Source: a virus. Taken from it: 37,971 bases of DNA. Made by a program: the position numbers and the translations under genes. Location: IMG/VR virus record IMGVR_UViG_3300043427_001745, positions 1-37,971 of that record; one strand, 5' to 3'. Positions 11,200 to 32,958 of the stretch are shown here, in pieces (the first letter of the stretch is position 1; each line of letters starts with the position of its first letter). The notes beneath the pieces were generated by a model, which worked only from the letters and a program-made list of their open reading frames with translations, was not told where the DNA came from and searched no databases.

Positions 11200-11604
11200 T
11201 CAGTAGCCATAATAGCCGTAGGCCGGCGGCCTGTAAATAGGCGCCCCAATCGGTGCGCGGCTGCCAATACCCGAAATCACCGTTGTTCCTCCGACCGTGC
11301 CGACCGTAGTGATGGCCGGTGAGTCCGGCCCCACGACAACGACCGGCTGCGGCGGCGGTGCATACTGTGCGGCCATGGCTTGATTGAAGACGGTCGGATC
11401 AAACGCTGCGGGCGCTGGGCTGCCATCCTCCATAACCCAAGGATGACCTGACCCGAAGAAACGGGTTCCTTTTGGCACCCACTTGCCATCTTGTGTGCGG
11501 ACCAATCCCTTGGCGTCCATCCTCGCTGCCTTTTCGTTGTATGTTTCGCAGCCAGTGGCGGCCATCACCACGGCGGCGGTTAGTGTTAGGGTTAGGAGTT
11601 TCAT
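11200..11604 (-). CDS. Small lipoprotein coupled to the integrase
   Basis: 134 residues. The start is the ATG at 11604, which overlaps the integrase TGA as ATGA; AGAAG lies upstream. The N-terminus MKLLTLTLTAAVVMAATGC is a type-II signal peptide with lipobox ATGC, so the mature protein would begin with a lipidated Cys19. The mature part (ETYNEKAARMDAKGLVRTQDG, then a GTRFFGSGHPWVMEDG segment) ends in a Pro/Gly/Tyr-rich tail (YRPPAYGYYGY). No family is recognised. Being translated from the integrase message suggests expression during establishment or maintenance of lysogeny, for example surface alteration or superinfection exclusion. An outer spanin is the alternative, but the lysis genes are far away. 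Confidence 0.7.
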   Translation of the reverse strand: MKLLTLTLTAAVVMAATGCETYNEKAARMDAKGLVRTQDGKWVPKGTRFFGSGHPWVMEDGSPAPAAFDPTVFNQAMAAQYAPPPQPVVVVGPDSPAITTVGTVGGTTVISGIGSRAPIGAPIYRPPAYGYYGY

Positions 11605-12776
11605 ATTTGTGGTTCTTCTTGAAATGCTGCCGGCACGGTCACGGCTCTTTGCCATGTCGCATACCAGCGTTGCGTTGTTACATAGGACGAGTGTCCCAAA
11701 AGGTATTGTGCTTGGACGAGTGACCCCGTCGCCTCCAGCCAATCACTGCCGGCTTGCTTGCGAAGCTCGTAGGCGGCGCCCTTGCGGTTCGGGATGTATT
11801 GCCGCAGCCATGTGTTGAAGTTGCGCAGCATGAAGTTGTAGCGAAGAAACTCTGTGCCGAGCGGGATCATGTAGTCATCGGCGGCCAGCAGATGGTCGGC
11901 CATCCATGGTGCCAAGGTAATGTCGCGCTCGCGGCATCCCCCTGTCTTTAGGGTGAAGTCCTCATCGGGGCGTTCGCGGATGCACATGGTCTTGCCCTCG
12001 GGGCGGTCCTCGATCCATGTCTTGCGGGCATAGCTGACCTCCTTCGGCGTCATGCCTATGTAGCGGCAGCAGATAAAGGCGCGGCGGATCTCGGGCATGC
12101 CACGGCTGTCGCGCTCCATGGCATCCAGCTTGTCCTTGGGAATGTGCTGGAAGCTGGTCGGGTTGTATTTCTGCTTGGCTTGTTTGCTGGCCGAGCGGAA
12201 GGAGGCGATGTCGGGCAGCTTAAAGTCGATCCAGTCGTTGCTGTCGGCAAACACACTCTTGGCACTGGCGAGCGTGCTGCCGGCGGTGTAGGCGCTGGTT
12301 CCGCAGTTGGTCAGGTATTGGCGCACCAGCTTGTCGTTCAATTCGGTGGAGCGGACGGCCATCACCTTGGCGATCTCGGCATCAGTCATCGGGATGGAAC
12401 GGCTCTTTATCATGGGGTGCGCCCGAAATGGGGCAATGCCCTTGGCTCTAGCGATGACTCGGAGCAAACAGCGAATGTTTTCCTCCTTGCTCGGGCAGTC
12501 GCTTCGCAGCCGGTAATGCTCGACGACCTTGCCGATGCTCGGGGATTCGTCGCGGCCATGGGTCAGTTCGGTGAGGCGGGACATGCCTTCTTGGCCAAGG
12601 ATGTTTAAGTAAGACAGCCCCTTGGCCTTGGCTACCTTGGGGTCTGCCGTTTTTAGAGAGATGCGGCGCATCTTCTTCTCATGGGTGTATCGCAGCCAGA
12701 GCGCGCCCCGGCGTTGAAAGACTGTGCCTCTTAGCCCATACTTCGGGACTTCTATGCGGAAACTTTCAATGTTCAT
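11601..12776 (-). CDS. int: Tyrosine recombinase (phage integrase)
   Basis: 391 residues from the ATG at 12776. A TTG 13 codons upstream is in frame, but it is itself the -35 box of the likely promoter, so the shorter start is chosen. Residues about 1-60 resemble an arm-binding/SAM-like N-terminus (RRGALWLRYTHEKKMRRISL). The catalytic domain shows beta-hairpin Lys277 (FTLKTGG), Arg339 in YELRKQAGS, His362 in LLGHSSYVTT and Tyr372 in QRWYA. Box I is RYIGMTPKEVS, where the usual TGLR arginine aligns with Thr243. Role: integration and excision at the adjacent tRNA-Arg-like site. It is translationally coupled to the lipoprotein downstream. The missing first arginine leaves activity open. Confidence 0.88.
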   Translation of the reverse strand: MNIESFRIEVPKYGLRGTVFQRRGALWLRYTHEKKMRRISLKTADPKVAKAKGLSYLNILGQEGMSRLTELTHGRDESPSIGKVVEHYRLRSDCPSKEENIRCLLRVIARAKGIAPFRAHPMIKSRSIPMTDAEIAKVMAVRSTELNDKLVRQYLTNCGTSAYTAGSTLASAKSVFADSNDWIDFKLPDIASFRSASKQAKQKYNPTSFQHIPKDKLDAMERDSRGMPEIRRAFICCRYIGMTPKEVSYARKTWIEDRPEGKTMCIRERPDEDFTLKTGGCRERDITLAPWMADHLLAADDYMIPLGTEFLRYNFMLRNFNTWLRQYIPNRKGAAYELRKQAGSDWLEATGSLVQAQYLLGHSSYVTTQRWYATWQRAVTVPAAFQEEPQI

Positions 12777-12786
12777 AACGAATCCA

Positions 12787-12815
12787 TTGCTAAACCGTCT
12801 GCCCCGTGGTGTCAA
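12787..12815 (-). promoter_or_regulatory. Integrase promoter with almost no leader
   Basis: On the minus strand TTGACA (12815-12810) is followed after exactly 17 bases by TAGCAA (12792-12787). Only ten bases separate this -10 from the integrase ATG, so transcription would start about four bases before the codon. One short direct repeat (TCAAGATGG, 12812-12820) overlaps the -35, which would let integrase or an excision factor block its own promoter. Confidence 0.5.
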
Positions 12816-17895: not shown

Positions 17896-18662
17896 TGCCA
17901 AAGACCGCGACAGGCAGACCGCGCAAAGTTGCCAAGGCGCAACCGGCCAAGGATGCCGAGCAACCGGCCGCGCCACTCCCCCAGCCCGTGCGAGTGAACA
18001 ACGGATCAACCGGCCTCAATCTGCCCGAGGAGAAGCAGGAAGCCATCGCGCGCATGCATGCTGCCGGTGTGCCGGTAACGCGGATCGCGTCCGAGGTTGG
18101 GGTTTCTTATCACTCGGTCGCCGGTCTGATCCGCAACCGGCCCGACCTGCTCGACGCGGCCCGAGATATTACATCTAAGAATTGGCGCACCCTGGCCGCC
18201 CTTGGCACGGCTCAACTTGTGGACAGGCTGCCGGAAATGAAGGATCAAGCCTTGTCGGTCCTCGCCGCCATCGCTACCGAGAAAGCGGAGCTTTTGTCCG
18301 GCGGTGCAACGTCTCGCGTTGAGATAGTGTCCGCGCCTTCAGCGGATGAGTGGCTGGACGTGGTGGATGGTGTCATTGTGGAATCGTCCCCGGCAATGGG
18401 TAACACCGGCCAAAGCCGTGCGCCAAAAGCACACAACCGCACACAATCGCCACGCCTAGAGCAACCAAGCGGTGAACAACCGTCTGTTTCCTGCTCTGTT
18501 TCCTCTGTAGATGCTGACGGTGTGCCAACTTTTGAGCCAGACGAGGCCCGTTTTTTACCGCCCCCTCCCCCCTCGGATGGAGGGGGGGCGGGGGTTGCTC
18601 GTTCTTCTAGACCATCATACCCCGATTCAACCGATGACGAAAAATTTTTCACTAAAAGATAA
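17895..18662 (+). CDS. HTH protein with disordered C-terminus
   Basis: 255 residues. Basic, Ala/Pro-rich N-terminus (MPKTATGRPRKVAKAQPA), then PEEKQEAIARMHAAGVPVTR and IASEVGVSYHSVAGLIRNRP, a clear helix-turn-helix at about residues 58-80 of the resolvase/small-terminase type. A helical region follows to about 140. From 165 on the sequence is low-complexity Ser/Pro/Gly, with a proline run and a glycine run encoded by facing C- and G-tracts. It may be a transcription regulator or a small-terminase-like DNA-recognition protein; the distance from the large terminase makes regulation more likely. Confidence 0.6.
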   Translation: MPKTATGRPRKVAKAQPAKDAEQPAAPLPQPVRVNNGSTGLNLPEEKQEAIARMHAAGVPVTRIASEVGVSYHSVAGLIRNRPDLLDAARDITSKNWRTLAALGTAQLVDRLPEMKDQALSVLAAIATEKAELLSGGATSRVEIVSAPSADEWLDVVDGVIVESSPAMGNTGQSRAPKAHNRTQSPRLEQPSGEQPSVSCSVSSVDADGVPTFEPDEARFLPPPPPSDGGGAGVARSSRPSYPDSTDDEKFFTKR

Positions 18663-19145: not shown

Positions 19146-19904
19146 ATGAGCGCACAAGCCGCTAGCTGGGTGTGGAATCACAGTGAAGCCAAGGGGCCGG
19201 CGTTTGTCGTGTTGCTGGCCATGGCCGATTGGGCGATGGATGGCGACAGGTGTTTCGCCTCGTATCGTCGGTTATCGGCCAAGGCGAGGGTCAGTGTATC
19301 GACGGTGCGGCGGGCGTTGAGGGAGTTGGAGGAGCTTGGGGAGGTGCGTCAGTTGGCCCCCGGCGACTTCGGAACCCATGCCGAAAGGAAGCATGCAAGT
19401 GATTGGGTTCTCCCAAAAGTTTCATGTGTTCACAGTGACCATGTGGTCAGAGAGAACACATGCCATGTGGTCACAGAGAACACATCATGTGTTCAGAGAG
19501 AACACTCAACTATAGTAAACTATTCTATTCCTTCTTCTTCTTTTACAGAAGAAAAGAAGACAAATGCAATACCATTCTCAAACCAATCCCCTAGCACCCT
19601 CAACGGAACTAACGGAAAGACAAAAGTGCCGCCGCGAGAAAGCATTCTCGGAAAGGGCATGTCCGACGATGACTGGCTGGACCACCTAGCCGCCCTCCCC
19701 CAATACCGGGGAGTCAACGTCCGCGCGAAGTTTGAGCACTTGCTCAAGTGGTGCGCCGACAAGGGCGAGACGGCCACCCGCCAGCGCTTGAAGGTCTGGC
19801 TGGACAAGGACGCCAAGCAGCAGCGCATGGCGCCCCCTGCCCCGAAGATTGTGAAGATCGTCCGCGACGACTTCTCGGAACTGATGCAGGAGCTGGCGGT
19901 ATGA
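19146..19904 (+). CDS. Replication initiator, O-like, with internal origin
   Basis: 252 residues. The N-terminus (WVWNHSEAKGPAFVVLLAMA; FASYRRLSAKARVSVSTVRR; ALRELEELGEVRQL) is the HTH_36-type winged helix of phage replication proteins, with recognition helix at about residues 48-65. Residues about 92-125 are an odd His/Val/Glu/Asn repeat that is simply the translation of four iterons in the DNA. The C-terminal part (DDDWLDHLAALPQYRGVN, then KFEHLLKWCADKGETATR) probably contacts the helicase or its loader. By analogy with lambda O the protein binds the iterons in its own gene and recruits the DnaB encoded 1.7 kb downstream. Confidence 0.7.
   Translation: MSAQAASWVWNHSEAKGPAFVVLLAMADWAMDGDRCFASYRRLSAKARVSVSTVRRALRELEELGEVRQLAPGDFGTHAERKHASDWVLPKVSCVHSDHVVRENTCHVVTENTSCVQREHSTIVNYSIPSSSFTEEKKTNAIPFSNQSPSTLNGTNGKTKVPPRESILGKGMSDDDWLDHLAALPQYRGVNVRAKFEHLLKWCADKGETATRQRLKVWLDKDAKQQRMAPPAPKIVKIVRDDFSELMQELAV
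19423..19560 (+). repeat. Origin of replication candidate: four iterons and AT-rich stretch
   Basis: Four copies of CATGTGKTCASAGWGAACA begin at 19423, 19440, 19464 and 19486; copy 1 is one base short. Each copy is itself a dyad, CATGTGKTC to GAACACATG around five bases. They are followed at 19505-19560 by a sharp AT-rich interval (ACTATAGTAAACTATTCTAT and a polypyrimidine/polypurine inverted repeat), unlike the GC-rich surroundings. Four iterons plus an unwinding region inside the initiator gene is the lambda/lambdoid arrangement. Confidence 0.7.
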
Positions 19905-21255: not shown

Positions 21256-21488
21256 TCTCCGGTCGCCAACTCAGCCAATACTTCGACAGGGGCGCCAAGC
21301 GCCACAATGGCGAAGTGCTCCACTACCGCATCGAGGTTGCCGAACCCGAGTTCCCCACCGAGGCAGAGCTGCGGGAAATGGACCGCGCCATCGCCCGTTT
21401 CTGGGCACGCCGGAAGCGCCTCAAAATCGCCCAAAAAAAGACTGTTGACACTCCGCACACATTCCCCTACAACTCACCACAGTTATGA
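21252..21488 (+). CDS. Unrecognised 78-residue protein
   Basis: The ATG at 21252 in the ATGA overlap is preferred to an in-frame ATG three codons upstream. MISGRQLSQYFDRGAKRHNG, then EVLHYRIEVAEPEFPTEAEL and a basic helix (REMDRAIARFWARRKRLKIA). Probably a small helical, nucleic-acid-associated protein; no family known. Confidence 0.55.
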   Translation: MISGRQLSQYFDRGAKRHNGEVLHYRIEVAEPEFPTEAELREMDRAIARFWARRKRLKIAQKKTVDTPHTFPYNSPQL

Positions 21489-26731: not shown

Positions 26732-27302
26732 ATTTAGCGGCGTTGTCCGCGATGCGTTTATTGGGGGGGGGGATGACGCCATGAGCTGCGACTTGCTGCC
26801 GACCGAAGCGCCGGGGCCGCACTACCAGGGGGACGTGCGCGATGTGCTCGACTATCCGTGGGACTTGATGATTGCGCACCCGCCATGCACGCACCTGTCT
26901 GTCAGCGGGGCGCGACACTTTGCCGACAAACGCTTAGACGGCCGGCAGCAATCGGCAGTCTCGTTCTTCATGCGGCTTGCCAAGGCGGACATCCCGCGCA
27001 TCGCCATCGAGAACCCGGTGTGCATCATGTCCACGCTTTGGCGCAAGCCGGATCAAACGATTCAGCCTTGGGAGTTCGGCCACGGAGAAACCAAGGCGAC
27101 CTGCCTTTGGCTCAAGGGTCTTCCGCCGCTCCAGCCAACCGAGATTGTTCCGGGGCGAGACAACCGCGTCCATAAGGGGTGTGGCTTTGGCTGGAGCACG
27201 CCCGAGTGCAAGCGCGAGAGAAGCCGGACATTTGCCGGAGTCGCCCAAGCGATGGCCAAGCAGTGGGGCGCCCCCGCGCAAGCCGACCTTATTGCCGCCT
27301 AA
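26709..27302 (+). CDS. Cytosine-methyltransferase-like protein, short form
   Basis: 197 residues. MKVLIACEFSGVVRDAFI is the SAM-binding FxG-type start, SCDLLPTEAPGPHYQGDVRD holds the motif-II/III acidic residues, APPC-type catalytic loop is HPPCTHL (Cys60), and RIAIENPV is the ENV-type motif. These are C5-cytosine-methylase landmarks, but the usual TRD and C-terminal motifs IX-X are absent and the protein is half the usual length. Such short forms are frequent in phages and may protect phage DNA or be non-catalytic. A run of ten Gs lies in its early codons. Confidence 0.65.
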   Translation: MKVLIACEFSGVVRDAFIGGGDDAMSCDLLPTEAPGPHYQGDVRDVLDYPWDLMIAHPPCTHLSVSGARHFADKRLDGRQQSAVSFFMRLAKADIPRIAIENPVCIMSTLWRKPDQTIQPWEFGHGETKATCLWLKGLPPLQPTEIVPGRDNRVHKGCGFGWSTPECKRERSRTFAGVAQAMAKQWGAPAQADLIAA

Positions 27303-27321
27303 ACAGCACACAACCGCACAC

Positions 27322-27777
27322 ATGACGATCACCCTCAACGACGCAGAGCAAAAGCTGGCCCGCTATTTGGCAGCCAGTCGCCATGCGTCCAACCGCAGCG
27401 AAGGGACCAAGAACTCGCGCATCGGCCCGCAAAGCGACGAGCAAACGGACTTGGAAGGCATCGGCGCGGAGATTGCATTTTGCAAAATTCACAACATCTA
27501 CCCCGACACGCAGATTGCCGAGCGTCCGGCGGCCGACGCCTATTTGCCCGATGGCACCACCGTTGACGTAAAGGCCACGCCCTACCCCAACGGCCACCTG
27601 CTTGCCGTCCGCTGGAAGAAATGCGACGTGCAGATGTATTCGCTCATGGTCGGCACGTTCCCGAACTATCGCCATGCCGGGATGATGCCGGCGCCCGAGT
27701 TGCTGCGCCCCGAGCGCTTGAAGAACTTCGGCTATGGCGACAGCTACGCGGCCAAGCAATCGGAATTGGCGGCATGA
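27322..27777 (+). CDS. PD-(D/E)XK-like phage nuclease candidate
   Basis: 151 residues. LEGIGAEIAFCKIHNI offers the helix Glu, AADAYLPDGTTVDVKATP offers Asp and the D-V-K strand, and QMYSLMVGTFPNYRHAG continues the sheet. The order fits a restriction-endonuclease-like fold; the exact family is unknown. Leader A/C-rich (ACAGCACACAACCGCACAC) without Shine-Dalgarno sequence. It is the fourth candidate of this fold in the early region. Confidence 0.5.
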   Translation: MTITLNDAEQKLARYLAASRHASNRSEGTKNSRIGPQSDEQTDLEGIGAEIAFCKIHNIYPDTQIAERPAADAYLPDGTTVDVKATPYPNGHLLAVRWKKCDVQMYSLMVGTFPNYRHAGMMPAPELLRPERLKNFGYGDSYAAKQSELAA

Positions 27778-27916: not shown

Positions 27917-28143
27917 GCGACACGCCACTAACAGACAAACACCCGCTATGGCACGGTGAGCCGGCGGTCCACATTGATTTTGCCCGAAAGCTGGAGGCCG
28001 AGCGCAACAAGGCGCGGCAGGAACTTAAAGAGGCATGGGAAGAAGTCGCGTCTGCTTGCGACGATTGGCTTAACAGCATCGTCCAAGAGCCGTCGTTGGA
28101 TTTTATTAAAGGCATCCGCGACTACGCGAAGAAAAGGGCATGA
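27913..28143 (+). CDS. Small phage helical protein (DFARKLE motif)
   Basis: 76 residues, ATGA overlaps at both ends. MSDTPLTDKHPLWHGEPAVH followed by IDFARKLEAERNKARQELKE and AWEEVASACDDWLNSIVQEP. Short phage proteins starting MSDTPRTD and containing xDFARxLExE before a helix are widespread and uncharacterised. It directly precedes the terminase, but no DNA-binding motif for a small terminase subunit is visible. Confidence 0.6.
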   Translation: MSDTPLTDKHPLWHGEPAVHIDFARKLEAERNKARQELKEAWEEVASACDDWLNSIVQEPSLDFIKGIRDYAKKRA

Positions 28144-29789
28144 GCGACAAGAAATCCACTCCCCGCTCCCGCTTCACACCGACCCCGCATCCGGTGATGA
28201 AGCTCCCGCCCAAGGACGTGCTCTTGGCCATAGGGCCAGAGAAGGGCTGGGATCTGCTGCTCAAACGCGAAGAACTAATCTTAAAGGAAAAGGTAGATCC
28301 TTATAGATACGGCTACCGCCCGCCGATCTGGAGCAAGGCCAGCCAGTTACTGGAGGACAACCGCGAGATCCTTGTCATGGGCGGCAACAGGTCCGGCAAA
28401 ACCGAATGGGCCGCGCGCGAAGTGATCCACCGGCTTTACCACAAGAAGCAATCCGTCGCCTGGTGCTTCCAAACGACCGCGCCCAACAGCATCGAGATGC
28501 AACAGCCCCGCGTCTTCAAATATCTGCCGGCCGACTGGCGGCAGGCGCGCAAGGGCACGGTCACGAATATCACTTACTCGGTCAAAGGTGGCTTTACCGA
28601 AAACAAGTTCGTCGCCCCCAATGGCAGCCAGTGCATCTTCCGCAACTACGCACAGGACATCAGCACCATCGAAGGCGGCGAGATTGACATAGCATGGTGC
28701 GACGAGTTGGTGCCGTTGGATTTCTTGGAGACCTTGCGCTTCCGTCTGCTCGACAGGAACGGCGTGCTCATCGTCACGTTCACCCCCATCGAGGGCTACT
28801 CACCCACGGTAAAAGACTACCTCACCGGCGCCCGCAACGTGGAGGAGTGCGATGCGGAGCTGTTGCCCAAGTTTGAAGACAACAAAGGCGAGAAGGTCAT
28901 CGTCGGCTACGAGAAGGTGCCCATCGTCCAGACAGGACGCAAGGGCCGGCCGATCATTTACTTCCAGACCAAGAACAATCCGTGGGCCGGATGGGAGCGC
29001 ATGCAGCAGGAGCTGCGCAACGAGACGCGCGAGAAGATCCTCTGCCGTGCGTATGGCGTCCCGACCCGATCCATCAACAACCGCTTCCCGCTATTCAACG
29101 ACAAGGTTCACGTCATAAAGCACGAATGGATTCCTAAGGAGGGCACCCGCTACCAATTCATAGACCCCTGCTCCGCGCGCAACTGGGCGATGATCTGGGC
29201 GCTGTTTGATAGTGCCAACCGCTGCTTCATCTATCGGGAGTGGCCCTGCCCGAACGAGTATGTCGAAGGCGTCGGCTATCCCGGCATGTGGGCCGAGCCG
29301 GATGGCAAGAAGGCGGACGGGCGCCAAGGCCCCGCGCAGAAAGACTTTGGTTTCGGGCTGGAGCGATACATCGAAGAAATCCGCAACGTCGAGAACGGCG
29401 AGCGCATCTTTGAGAGATGGATGGATTCGCGCTACGGCAACGCACAGACCTTGGCCAAGGAGCGGCCGACCACGCTAATCGAAGAGATGAGCGACCTCGG
29501 CATGGACTTCTCTGCCGCCCCCGGCGACACGATTGATGAAGGTGTTGGGCTTATCAATGACTGGCTGCACTACAACACGCAGAAGCCGCTCGACGCACTG
29601 AACCAGCCGAAACTCTATATTAGCGAGAATTGCCAGAACTTAATCTGGTGCATGAAGGAATGGACAGGCGCTGACGGAAACAAAGGCAGCAGCAAGGACT
29701 TCCCTGACCTCGTCCGCATGCTTGTGCTTTCCGGCTGCAATAACGTCGAAGGCGACATCCTGCGCCCGCGCGGAGGAGGGAGTTACTAA
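28140..29789 (+). CDS. terL: Terminase large subunit
   Basis: 549 residues, ATGA overlap. ATPase: Walker A GGNRSGKTE (Lys87), Walker B EIDIAWCDEL (Asp188-Glu189), coupling region LIVTFTPIEGYSP. Nuclease (RNase-H-like): Asp342 in FIDPCSARNW, Asp429 in WMDSRYG, and Asp520/Asp523 in KDFPDLVRML. All expected residues are present and the length is normal. It drives DNA into the prohead and cuts concatemers. The large insert in the nuclease domain (GMWAEPDGKKADGRQGPA) is typical of some podoviral terminases. A matching small subunit is not obvious; the HTH gene at 17895 is one candidate. Confidence 0.95.
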   Translation: MSDKKSTPRSRFTPTPHPVMKLPPKDVLLAIGPEKGWDLLLKREELILKEKVDPYRYGYRPPIWSKASQLLEDNREILVMGGNRSGKTEWAAREVIHRLYHKKQSVAWCFQTTAPNSIEMQQPRVFKYLPADWRQARKGTVTNITYSVKGGFTENKFVAPNGSQCIFRNYAQDISTIEGGEIDIAWCDELVPLDFLETLRFRLLDRNGVLIVTFTPIEGYSPTVKDYLTGARNVEECDAELLPKFEDNKGEKVIVGYEKVPIVQTGRKGRPIIYFQTKNNPWAGWERMQQELRNETREKILCRAYGVPTRSINNRFPLFNDKVHVIKHEWIPKEGTRYQFIDPCSARNWAMIWALFDSANRCFIYREWPCPNEYVEGVGYPGMWAEPDGKKADGRQGPAQKDFGFGLERYIEEIRNVENGERIFERWMDSRYGNAQTLAKERPTTLIEEMSDLGMDFSAAPGDTIDEGVGLINDWLHYNTQKPLDALNQPKLYISENCQNLIWCMKEWTGADGNKGSSKDFPDLVRMLVLSGCNNVEGDILRPRGGGSY

Positions 29790-29995
29790 TGGCTCCGAGC
29801 GGCACAGTTCCCCCACCCCCGCGAACCCGCCCATGGCGCGGCCGCAGCAAGGAGCCTCCACGCTGCGGTGTGTGTAGCAAGCAGCTTCGTATCGAAGATG
29901 TCCACGGAGTTGACGAACAGCTTGGCCCCATCTGCCGCGAGTGCGGCCCGCACGTCATCGAGGCCAACAAGGTCATGTATCCCTTCTGGATATAA
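29789..29995 (+). CDS. Zinc-ribbon protein following the terminase
   Basis: 68 residues, TAATG overlap. A Pro/Arg start (PPPPRTRPWRGRSKEP) leads to PRCGVCSKQLRIEDVHG and LGPICRECGPHVIEA: two CxxC pairs form one zinc ribbon. Tied to the terminase by overlap, it may act in packaging initiation or be a small DNA-binding accessory. Confidence 0.6.
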   Translation: MAPSGTVPPPPRTRPWRGRSKEPPRCGVCSKQLRIEDVHGVDEQLGPICRECGPHVIEANKVMYPFWI

Positions 29996-30110
29996 AGCAT
30001 CTTTCGTGACGACTTATTTTTCACCAACAGAGTAGCCCAAAAACTAAAGCGTCACTAATGACGAGTTAATACATACAAACGACTGCATTTGCCATTCACA
30101 AATACCGAAT

Positions 30111-30407
30111 ATGACTATGTTCACCAAAACCAAAACCATCCCCCTCGACCGCTACCCCGTTGCCGAAGACGAAGAGTTCGACTTCAAAGGCGCCCTCGCC
30201 TTCACCCGCGACCAAGCCCCGCCCTGCTGGCAAGCCGTCATGGTCGCCCTGCAAGACCGCATCGCAGACGGTGTAGCCTTGGCCAGCAACATGGCCACCG
30301 CCAAAGACCCCGGCCTCCTCGCCCACGCCAACGGCCAGCTCAATGCGCTGGTGGAATTGTGGGATTACTTGGAAGCCACCAGGGCCGAAGCGGCGAAGAT
30401 CCAGTAG
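30111..30407 (+). CDS. Unrecognised 98-residue protein
   Basis: MTMFTKTKTIPLDRYPVAED then EEFDFKGALAFTRDQAPPCW and helices (QAVMVALQDRIADGVALASN; AHANGQLNALVELWDYLEAT). The first ATG at 30111 is followed by a second at 30117. Flanked by non-coding DNA on both sides, including CGTCA-CTAA-TGACG at 30050-30063 upstream, so it may have its own promoter. Role unknown; position favours packaging or assembly. Confidence 0.55.
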   Translation: MTMFTKTKTIPLDRYPVAEDEEFDFKGALAFTRDQAPPCWQAVMVALQDRIADGVALASNMATAKDPGLLAHANGQLNALVELWDYLEATRAEAAKIQ

Positions 30408-30414
30408 GCGTCCA

Positions 30415-30676
30415 GCGCATACTTTTTGCGCAATAGTTTTTGCGACTAAAGGGCAAATAAGAATAACAACTCAGCAAAAAGTATGCGCCGGTCAACTCTT
30501 CGACAATATCGAAGCGTTCCCGCTCGCACCCTTTCGGGTATAATCCGGCCACTTTACCAGCATTTATACCCGCTCGGGAACTCACAAGTATTTCTTGTAG
30601 CGTGAAGCTGACACAAAAACACCCCACATTTTGTGTCACAAAGCGTCATGTTTTATGCAGAAGTGTTTACGCTTTG
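30415..30676. repeat. Array of six inverted repeats in a non-coding interval
   Basis: Arms: GCGCATACTTTTTGC 30415-30429 with its exact complement 30474-30488; CTTCGA 30498 / TCGAAG 30509; GTTCCCG 30516 / CGGGAAC 30575 enclosing CGGGTATAA 30535 / TTATACCCG 30564; ACAAG 30584 / CTTGT 30594; TGACACAAAA 30609 / TTTTGTGTCA 30629; CAAAGCGT 30639 / ACGCTTTG 30669. All arms are perfect. The 468-base interval 30408-30875 otherwise holds only the promoter and leader of the head operon. Terminator, structured RNA, packaging site or second origin are possible. Confidence 0.75.
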
Positions 30677-30756: not shown

Positions 30757-30785
30757 TTGACATGTGTGCGGTTGTGTGCTATTTG
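30757..30785 (+). promoter_or_regulatory. Promoter of the head (late) operon
   Basis: Consensus TTGACA 30757-30762, 17 bases, TATTTG 30780-30785. The leader of about 85 bases before the scaffold ATG contains AACGTC/GACGTT (30824/30843) and GCGC-ATT-GCGC repeats, then AGGGG nine bases before the ATG at 30876. It follows the inverted-repeat array, which would isolate it from the terminase transcript. Confidence 0.55.
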
Positions 30786-30875
30786 TAGTAATAGAGAGGC
30801 GCATTGCGCTTCACTCCGGTTCTAACGTCCCGGTTCCCCCCAGACGTTTGGCGCACCTCTTAGGGGTTTTATCCT

Positions 30876-31925
30876 ATGGCGACAGACAATGAGGCCGCGA
30901 CAGCGGCGGCGGTGGACGATGTAGTTTCGATGGCAATAGCCGAGCTGGGCGTTAAGCGCCAGCCCGAGGAACCCAAAGACGAGTCCGCCGACAAAGAGAC
31001 GATCTCTGACAACGCAGACACAGAAGAGGAGCCAGAGGAGAAATCTGAAGATTCCGCTGAAAGTGTAGAGGAGGAGCCGGCGACCGAAGCCGATTCTGCC
31101 GAAGAACCCGAGGATAGCGAGGACGACGCCACAGAAGAACCTGCTGGCGAGGAGGTTACGAAGGACAAGGTTCAACGCAGGATTGACAAGCTCGTCGCCA
31201 AGCAGCGCGAGGCCGAAGAAAAGGCCCAAGCCGCCAGTGCCGAACTGGACCAACTACGCACCGCCAAGGCGGACCTAGAAGCCCAGCTTAACCAGACCTC
31301 CCGCCCCGTTCTCACCCCCACGGCCGACAACCCGTTGGCCGATGTGGACAGTGACGAGGCCCTTCAACAGCGCATCCAGAATGCCCAAGCGGTTCGCCGA
31401 TGGGCGCTTCAGAATACGGACGGCGCCACGATCAAGCAGCCCGATGGAACTGAGAAGTTCATCGAGGGCAGCGAGGTGAAGGACTACTTGGTCAAAGCGG
31501 ATGACATCCTGACCATCCACGTCCCAGCCCGTAAGCAGTGGTTGGCCCAGCGTGAGCCGGCGGTGCAAGCCGCCAAAAGCATGTTCCCCGATATCTTCAA
31601 GGAGGGCAGCGCGCTCAACCAAGCCTACAAGGCCACGATCAAGCAGGCCCCCGATCTCCTCAAAATCCCCCAGCATGAATACTGGATCGGCCTCGCCCTC
31701 TACGGAGAGCAAGCCCTCATGGCCAAGCAGCAGACCGAAGCTGCCAAAGACAAGGCCAAGAAATCTGTGTCCGCGAAGAAAGAGAAAACCGTCACACCCG
31801 TCCAGCCCGTTAGCGCGCCCCGCTCTGCCACAAAAGGCAGCTCTACGGCTGCGAAAAATCGGTTCTTCAAATCAAGCGGGTCCATGTCGGACATCGAGGA
31901 CTTGGTGGGAGAACTGATCGGATAA
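30876..31925 (+). CDS. Head scaffolding protein
   Basis: 349 residues directly upstream of the capsid gene. The N-terminal 95 residues are extremely acidic (EEEPEEKSEDSAESVEEEP), then a coiled coil (VQRRIDKLVAKQREAEEKAQ; ASAELDQLRTAKADLEAQLN), and the C-terminus is basic and Ser/Lys-rich (AKKSVSAKKEKTVTP; KNRFFKSSGSMSDIEDLVGE). Acidic start, coiled coil and basic capsid-binding end before the capsid gene define phage scaffolds even without sequence identity. It shapes the prohead and leaves before DNA entry. Confidence 0.8.
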   Translation: MATDNEAATAAAVDDVVSMAIAELGVKRQPEEPKDESADKETISDNADTEEEPEEKSEDSAESVEEEPATEADSAEEPEDSEDDATEEPAGEEVTKDKVQRRIDKLVAKQREAEEKAQAASAELDQLRTAKADLEAQLNQTSRPVLTPTADNPLADVDSDEALQQRIQNAQAVRRWALQNTDGATIKQPDGTEKFIEGSEVKDYLVKADDILTIHVPARKQWLAQREPAVQAAKSMFPDIFKEGSALNQAYKATIKQAPDLLKIPQHEYWIGLALYGEQALMAKQQTEAAKDKAKKSVSAKKEKTVTPVQPVSAPRSATKGSSTAAKNRFFKSSGSMSDIEDLVGELIG

Positions 31926-31953: not shown

Positions 31954-32958
31954 ATGTCTCAAGGACTTGTTCATCCGGCCACCGGACTGCGCGAAGACTT
32001 GGCTGACGTGATCTCGGTCATCGACCAGAAAAACACGCCCGTCACCTCCCGCATCAAAGCCGGCTCGGATCTCACCAATGGTTCTGTCTTTTCATGGCAG
32101 GCCGACAGCTACAACGACCCGTCGTTCGACGGCGTCCTCACCAATGCGGATGTCACCACGTTTGACGATCCCGCCAAAAACCGCGTCCTCCTTTCCGGCC
32201 GCGCCCAGAAGTTCCGCCGTTCCATCAAAGTCGATGACTTTGCCCAGAACGTCGATAACGTCGCTGGCGTTGGCAAGAAGAAGGAAATGGCTCGCGGCGT
32301 TTCCCGCGCCCTCATCGAACTGAAGCGCGACATGGAAAGCGCCTTCTGCTCCAGCAACGATTCGCAAGAGCAGAGCGGCACCAACCCGTATAAAACTCGC
32401 GGCCTCGGTTCGTGGATTTCCAACTCGGCTCAGACCGACTTGCCCGTCCCCGCGTCGTTCCGCACGCCGTCCGCTTCGATCAACACGACTGCTACCTCCT
32501 CCCTCACCGAGAGCGATGTCGCCGCCGTTCTTCAGAGCGTCTACGAACAGACCGGCACCATCGACACGATGGATCTGGTCACTGGCCCGAACCTCAAGAA
32601 GCGCTTCAGCGAGTTCACCCGCTACTCCAGCGGCAGCAACACCGCTCTTAGCACCCGTCAATACACCGCCTCGCTCAATGACCGCACGGTCATCAGCACG
32701 GTGGACACCTACATCGGCGACTTCGGCACAATTAATTTGGTGCCGACCTTGTTCAATGCGAAGGACGCCGCCGCTGCCGTTCAGTCGGCCCGTGGCTACC
32801 TCCTCAACATGGACATGCTGGAATCCCGGTATGGCCGTCGCCCCCGCTTCCAAGAGCTGGAAGACCAGGGCGGTGGACCGCGTGGCCTCGTTGATGCGAT
32901 TGCCGCGTTGGTGTGCTGGAACCCGAAGGGCCTCGGCGAGTTCGCCGCGACTTCCTAG
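31954..32958 (+). CDS. Major capsid protein, SU10 (DUF5309) type
   Basis: 334 residues. The pattern SRIKAGSDLTNGSVFSWQAD, then GRAQKFRRSIKVDDFAQNV, then EMARGVSRALIELKRDMESA (the long spine helix), TSSLTESDVAAVLQSVYEQT, MDLVTGPNLKKRFSEFTRYS, and GTINLVPTLF...YLLNMDMLESRYGRRP is the SU10-type HK97-fold capsid. The position after the scaffold agrees. Its leader (AACACTTAGAAAACTCACAC) is A/C-rich without Shine-Dalgarno sequence although the product must be very abundant. Confidence 0.85.
   Translation: MSQGLVHPATGLREDLADVISVIDQKNTPVTSRIKAGSDLTNGSVFSWQADSYNDPSFDGVLTNADVTTFDDPAKNRVLLSGRAQKFRRSIKVDDFAQNVDNVAGVGKKKEMARGVSRALIELKRDMESAFCSSNDSQEQSGTNPYKTRGLGSWISNSAQTDLPVPASFRTPSASINTTATSSLTESDVAAVLQSVYEQTGTIDTMDLVTGPNLKKRFSEFTRYSSGSNTALSTRQYTASLNDRTVISTVDTYIGDFGTINLVPTLFNAKDAAAAVQSARGYLLNMDMLESRYGRRPRFQELEDQGGGPRGLVDAIAALVCWNPKGLGEFAATS

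Follow-up and report, generated by a model that had tools for sequence, protein, structure and literature searches.

The palindrome-rich interval that precedes the late scaffold-capsid genes of a temperate phage is a dispensable, constantly remodelled string of palindromes rather than a fixed element, and comparison with related phages suggests that its modules are traded between otherwise diverged phages while the neighbouring genes stay distinct. The phage is represented by a 37,971-bp virus record (IMG/VR IMGVR_UViG_3300043427_001745), the whole of which we refer to as the window. Along with an integrase-like gene (11601-12815, minus strand), the window encodes a lambda-O-like initiator, a DnaB helicase, the terminase large subunit, and an SU10-type capsid protein, as assigned with Pfam and PHROG. 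A nucleotide search with the window found no relatives among annotated phages; the best protein relative is Phage C75C1 (33% in TerL), whose layout after terL differs, and a scan of bacterial genomes with TerL found no relative. The order at the locus is terL, orf68, spacer A, orf98, spacer B (the interval of interest), promoter, leader, scaffold-like ORF, and capsid gene, as follows:

28140..29789, plus strand: terL, terminase large subunit (Pfam Terminase_6N, 9.6e-9; phrog_2)
29789-29995: orf68, small ORF between terL and spacer A
29996..30110, plus strand: interval A, the smaller variable non-coding spacer, from orf68 to orf98
30111..30407, plus strand: orf98, conserved small ORF (50-97% at the amino-acid level across relatives), the last gene ahead of the array
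30757..30785, plus strand: putative late promoter, TTGACA-N17-TATTTG, with two TGTGTGC half-sites in its spacer
30790..30875, plus strand: late 5' leader of the scaffold-like gene, with its ribosome-binding site and putative conserved stem-loops
30876..31925, plus strand: acidic scaffold-like ORF directly 5' of the capsid gene
31954..32958, plus strand: major capsid protein, SU10 family (PF17236, 2e-47)

Pfam and PHROG searches with orf98 returned no match. The scaffold-like ORF matches phrog_28737, a family without assigned function, and we infer its scaffold role from its position and composition. The initial annotation described the interval as lying beside the terminase/head junction of a genome that otherwise overlaps its genes. 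The interval does follow terL, but orf68 and orf98 intervene, and the overlap holds only roughly, there being a second spacer at 29996-30110. The base composition of the interval is 45% G+C, versus 59% G+C for the genome.

Six inverted repeats had been reported between 30415 and 30676, and each of the named arms is present in the sequence:

30412..30491, plus strand: H1, 15-bp arms GCGCATACTTTTTGC/GCAAAAAGTATGCGC (30415-30429 / 30474-30488), 44-nt spacer
30492..30520, plus strand: H2, hairpin with 6-bp arms CTTCGA/TCGAAG (near 30499-30516)
30516..30582, plus strand: H3, nested 7+9 bp palindrome GTTCCCG / CGGGTATAA ... TTATACCCG / CGGGAAC (arms at 30516-30581 and 30535-30572)
30583..30600, plus strand: H4, 5-bp hairpin ACAAG/CTTGT (near 30585)
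30608..30640, plus strand: H5, 10-bp arms TGACACAAAA/TTTTGTGTCA (30609-30638), loop with CACCCC
30639..30676, plus strand: H6, 8-bp arms CAAAGCGT/ACGCTTTG (30639-30676)

The duplication of TTTTTGCG noted in the 15-bp repeat is likewise there, with one copy in the 5' arm and one in the spacer. At a minimum arm length of 7 bp, six inverted repeats were counted, compared to a mean of 0.86 and a maximum of 5 in 200 dinucleotide shuffles (0 of 200 reached six); at a minimum of 9 bp there were three, compared to 0.025 in dinucleotide shuffles. The RNA fold z of the stretch is -4.9 to -5.2, whereas 96 control windows from the same genome had a mean of -0.45 (sd 1.34) and a lowest value of -4.5. In the corresponding intervals of relatives the mean fold z is -3.5, again versus -0.45 for the genome windows; note that folding energy is unremarkable in several relatives, mainly of group 2 (defined below) together with a few others such as L020.

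The relatives are IMG/VR contigs, mostly from metagenomes, and the compared set consists of 70 distinct intervals. By TerL amino-acid identity to the window they form group 1 (about 93-100%), group 2 (79-85%), and group 3 (61-69%). Among these 70 relatives the late promoter lies from 10 bp (L027 and L045) up to about 700 bp beyond the orf98 stop. The array is made up of some ten palindromic modules whose order does not vary, with 771 module pairs collinear and none non-collinear across the 70 intervals. Lineages lack different subsets of the modules, down to the 10 bp that separate stop codon and promoter in L027 and L045. The window itself carries a partly deleted version; most simply, an originally long array lost different parts in different lineages. 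(L027 and L045 have almost no spacer 5' of orf98 either, and in this shortest of intervals a near-perfect palindrome still spans the orf98 stop codon.) Depending on the subclade, some modules occupy either interval A or interval B, group 1 carrying them in interval B. In L026, L029, and L069 the place of the array after orf98 is taken by a small ORF that has a good ribosome-binding site (MFKTPDNGIVYSPYGGIGFYERHAP...), and this ORF occurs in groups 1 and 2. In L004, L010, and L043, minisatellite-like CTCCCTGCTCCCTGCTCC repeats of varying copy number lie directly before the promoter.

Groups 1 and 3 have a terL nucleotide identity of about 69%, and for most modules the median identity between these two groups is near that within them (for an example module, 0.875 between groups versus 0.879 and 0.844 within), identical copies also occurring. 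H3 of the window is mostly 83-92% identical to its counterparts in group-3 phages. When L012 is compared to L092, identity is about 70% in orf98, 97-98% over 240 bp of the array, and 42-60% beyond the array. Near-identity between such phages thus ends where the non-coding interval does. Exact tracts of 113, 104, 95, and 93 bp are common to different pairs of phages, and the fact that different pairs hold different tracts argues for several exchange events. With a near-identical tract between groups 1 and 3 defined as at least 40 bp at 95% identity or more, 110 such tracts fall in or after interval B and none in terL, orf68, orf98, or the scaffold/capsid and downstream region. Despite being closer by terL, groups 1 and 2 have no near-identical tract in the interval; the modules thus do not follow phage phylogeny. 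Chimeric assembly of the relatives' contigs may contribute, although many independent contigs share the pattern.

Groups 1 and 3 also have near-identical tracts in common among accessory genes 5' of terL; this second cluster lies in a stretch that is absent from the window (around 2100-2400 in L019; also in L031, L046, and L053). In L117 and L121, orf68 is 91% identical to that of the window, with the adjacent terL and orf98 at about 67%, as would be expected had a whole small gene been swapped between spacers.

One candidate function put forward for 30415-30676 was a structured phage RNA, and covariation in related phages had been named beforehand as a check. A selected RNA fold predicts that paired bases change more slowly, that departures from pairing are more often G-U than A-C, and that compensation exceeds the null. 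In the array, the substitution rate was 0.088 at paired and 0.083 at unpaired positions; departures from pairing comprised 45 G-U and 57 A-C events, and hence no G-U bias; and 12 of 257 pairs were compensated versus 10.7 (sd 1.8) in shuffles. The array pairs were therefore not clearly compensated, and a selected RNA fold is not supported. The number of compensated cells was higher than in shuffles (25 versus 15.8, sd 2.6), so the array may show a weak compensatory effect. (Note that an initial G-U excess of 297 versus 109 was gone once the reference fold forbade G-U pairs, and that a count from the whole mosaic alignment was discarded because non-homologous modules were mixed there.) A scan of the whole window against Rfam gave no match, and the array is not conserved as a unit. 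Thus, in spite of a fold z of about -5, we regard it as very improbable that the interval encodes a conserved structured RNA. A test for Rho-independent terminators, in which a run of U directly follows a G+C-rich stem, found no canonical U-tract after any of the module stems, and its one match was a weak one of 5 pairs at 30415-30431; a scan of the 5-kb region found 7 sites versus 6.2 in shuffles, which is no excess. The absence of U-tracts disfavours classical termination, and the view that the arrangement is more than one terminator needs was right.

The promoter at 30757, which had been pointed out as lying close to the repeats, is conserved within the window's own clade: the putative promoter is retained in nearly all group-1 relatives, array-less ones included. 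It is the one conserved putative promoter and follows the whole array, the individual modules having none. A search of this strand for sigma-70 matches at the 9-of-12 level, from 28 to 33 kb, found none. An exact 11-bp inversion in the promoter spacer at 30762-30772 distinguishes the window from most relatives (TTGAC[ATGTGTGCGGT]TGTGTGC in the window versus TTGAC[ACCGCACACAT]TGTGTGC in most relatives), and with one half-site flipped the repeat is direct rather than inverted. Further plus-strand copies of the half-site pair GCACACAACCGCACACA are found at 18425-18445 and at 27302-27322, the latter just before an ATG near 27321, and a promoter-like TTGACACTCCGCACACAT is found near 21445.

Downstream of the promoter, a leader stem exists in two versions, AACGTC/GACGTT and AAGACT/AGTCTT, that are fully compensated (4 of 7 pairs). 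The individual leaders of groups 1 and 2 fold no more stably than shuffles, and a joint alignment of these two groups shifts register. The leader of group 3 differs in having three helices in the last 90 bp before the scaffold-like gene (e.g., L103, L111, and L138), and its third hairpin covaries strongly (10 cells with changes on both sides and every cell paired; 0 of 500 shuffles). The claim of a structured leader is thus partly supported, resting on the compensated stem and on the group-3 leader, and the latter is a candidate for a new RNA family. Within 30790-30875, a C-rich loop (CCCCCC) could pair with the AGGGG ribosome-binding site, and the C-run and G-run are largely retained across groups 1 and 2. 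The scaffolding protein of phage P22 controls its own synthesis, and it is a reasonable guess that the leader controls the scaffold-like and capsid genes at the level of translation.

The natural deletions of the array make it unlikely that the interval is an essential packaging site, an origin, or a cluster of operators. Provided that the contigs L027 and L045 come from viable phages, the 10 bp that they keep between orf98 and promoter are at odds with all three of these candidates of the initial annotation, namely a packaging recognition site, a second origin, and operators needed by the promoter at 30757. (The only conserved operator-like half-sites, TGTGTGC, sit inside the promoter.) That the interval is hairpin-rich and adjoins terL, and that about 16 short relative contigs stop between the equivalents of window positions 30848 and 30974, might suggest a pac/cos site or a second replication origin. 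However, these stops are scattered in and beside a block that is nearly invariant among strains, as assembly breaks would be, and long relative contigs continue straight through. Moreover, the lambda-O-like gene offers a better origin, with three near-identical 20-bp repeats (CATGTGGTCAGAGAGAACAC) at 19440-19505 that are probable replication origin iterons. We therefore give a packaging site or second origin hardly any credence. Overall, the initial observation of the repeats was true and the functions suggested for them were mostly wrong.

The main rival to the explanation that we favour (below) is that the modules are DNA sites for a dimeric phage or host protein (operators, nucleoid-protein sites, or recombinase sites), such that the symmetry is that of the protein and not of an RNA. 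Consistent with this idea, there is no asymmetry between G-U and A-C departures and paired bases evolve like unpaired ones, as if the RNA strand were not selected, and whole modules, spacers included, are common to different groups. Nevertheless, the arms and spacers of the modules have no evident common half-site, the spacers range from about 3 to 44 nt, and the array is missing in L027 and L045; we consider such protein sites unlikely. Alternatively, the modules might be mobile, as small palindromic elements of a MITE-, REP- or MPME-like kind that insert into intergenic sites by transposition. Here it is relevant that H1 or part of it is found in three further phage contigs (L087, L089, and L098) that have no detectable relative of the window's genes besides the module, the L087 capsid protein belonging to another family. 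In each of these contigs H1 sits at an unrelated gene boundary, its arm starting at a gene's TGA stop codon, and in L089 and L098 it is inverted. Mobility would also accommodate those modules whose interval, A or B, depends on the subclade. Against it stand the strict collinearity of the modules (771 to 0), their presence at one place per genome in 18 longer records, and a 23-nt H5b pattern whose interval was the same in all of the contigs examined. In addition, 84,980 bacterial and archaeal genomes were searched for an exact 18-mer; the 11 hits are in line with chance, and none extended to a homologous element. Nor were target duplications observed, no empty site having been identified for the copies in L087, L089, and L098. 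Mobile elements are in our estimation quite improbable.

On balance, and with modest confidence, we favour the explanation that the modular, palindrome-rich array between the replication/terL block and the late scaffold-capsid operon is an exchange-prone, insulating 3'-end spacer. As to molecular function, we infer that the palindromes would work together, and redundantly, as hairpins at the 3' end behind orf98, and not as one fixed RNA. Such hairpins would slow or terminate read-through and protect the upstream mRNA end, and would in this way insulate the late promoter at 30757. Besides the palindrome excess, two observations favour this reading, namely that a near-perfect palindrome persists at the orf98 stop even in L027 and L045, and that H1 arms start at stop codons in the three contigs that have no detectable gene similarity to the window. 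If any hairpin suffices, turnover of sequence without turnover of palindromes would be explained. The short modules held in common would provide homology for phage recombination, the spacer serving as a joint at which gene blocks and pieces of the array could be exchanged. Note that the equal substitution rates of paired and unpaired positions mean that maintenance of the hairpins by point selection is not seen, that the way in which such sequences originate could instead account for the palindromes, and that the array hairpins, which have no canonical U-tract, may not terminate transcription. Another reading, which we entertain tentatively and think doubtful, is that the position-fixed array is a recombination commons in which the palindromes themselves promote exchange and content evolves independently of lineage. 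Hairpin- or cruciform-provoked breaks or template switching could then drive exchange, and phages too diverged for gene exchange at the locus would still trade pieces of the array.

Several known systems resemble the array in part. The PeSL mobile regulatory cassettes of T4-type phages, reportedly described by Arbiol and colleagues in 2010, are said to consist each of a stem-loop and an early promoter. As with PeSLs, there are stem-loops in non-coding spacers near a promoter, at a plastic region whose content varies and is exchanged between related phages; unlike PeSLs, the modules do not carry a promoter each, a single promoter ending the array, and the many palindromes have a fixed order and are confined to one junction. 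The boundary (linker) sequences of lambdoid phages, an idea cited in PMC3029335, are likewise short common sequences, found at gene boundaries where modules join, that would allow recombination between diverged phages, and shared sequence between diverged flanks is what is seen here (L012 versus L092; the 110 tracts). The difference is that here the non-coding array itself seems to be exchanged, with both flanking genes diverged, and that its pieces are palindromic. MPMEs, which PMC3029335 presents as ultra-small mobile elements of mycobacteriophages, share with the modules a very small size, a presence that varies between close relatives, and inverted repeats. The pieces of the array are, however, far shorter and in fixed order, without dispersed insertion sites within the genome, and they lack the several unrelated places per genome expected of MITE, REP, or MPME elements (one place in the 18 records). 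Finally, the position of the hairpins, immediately behind the final gene of a block and ahead of a promoter, recalls Rho-independent terminators, from which the array differs in its lack of a U-tract, its several hairpins, and its many A+T-rich arms.

A strong local fold, as this interval cautions, need not imply a functional RNA. What appears to be new is how the modules are exchanged, with many phages showing a mosaic joint that is both visible and recent. Phage genomes are mosaic, and the joints between their parts are usually old and blurred. At this one spacer recent joints are visible, with flanking genes about 69% identical and pieces of the array up to 98-100% identical, and the long-standing question of whether phage recombination is driven by short conserved sequences or hairpins at the borders between genes can therefore be tested at one locus.
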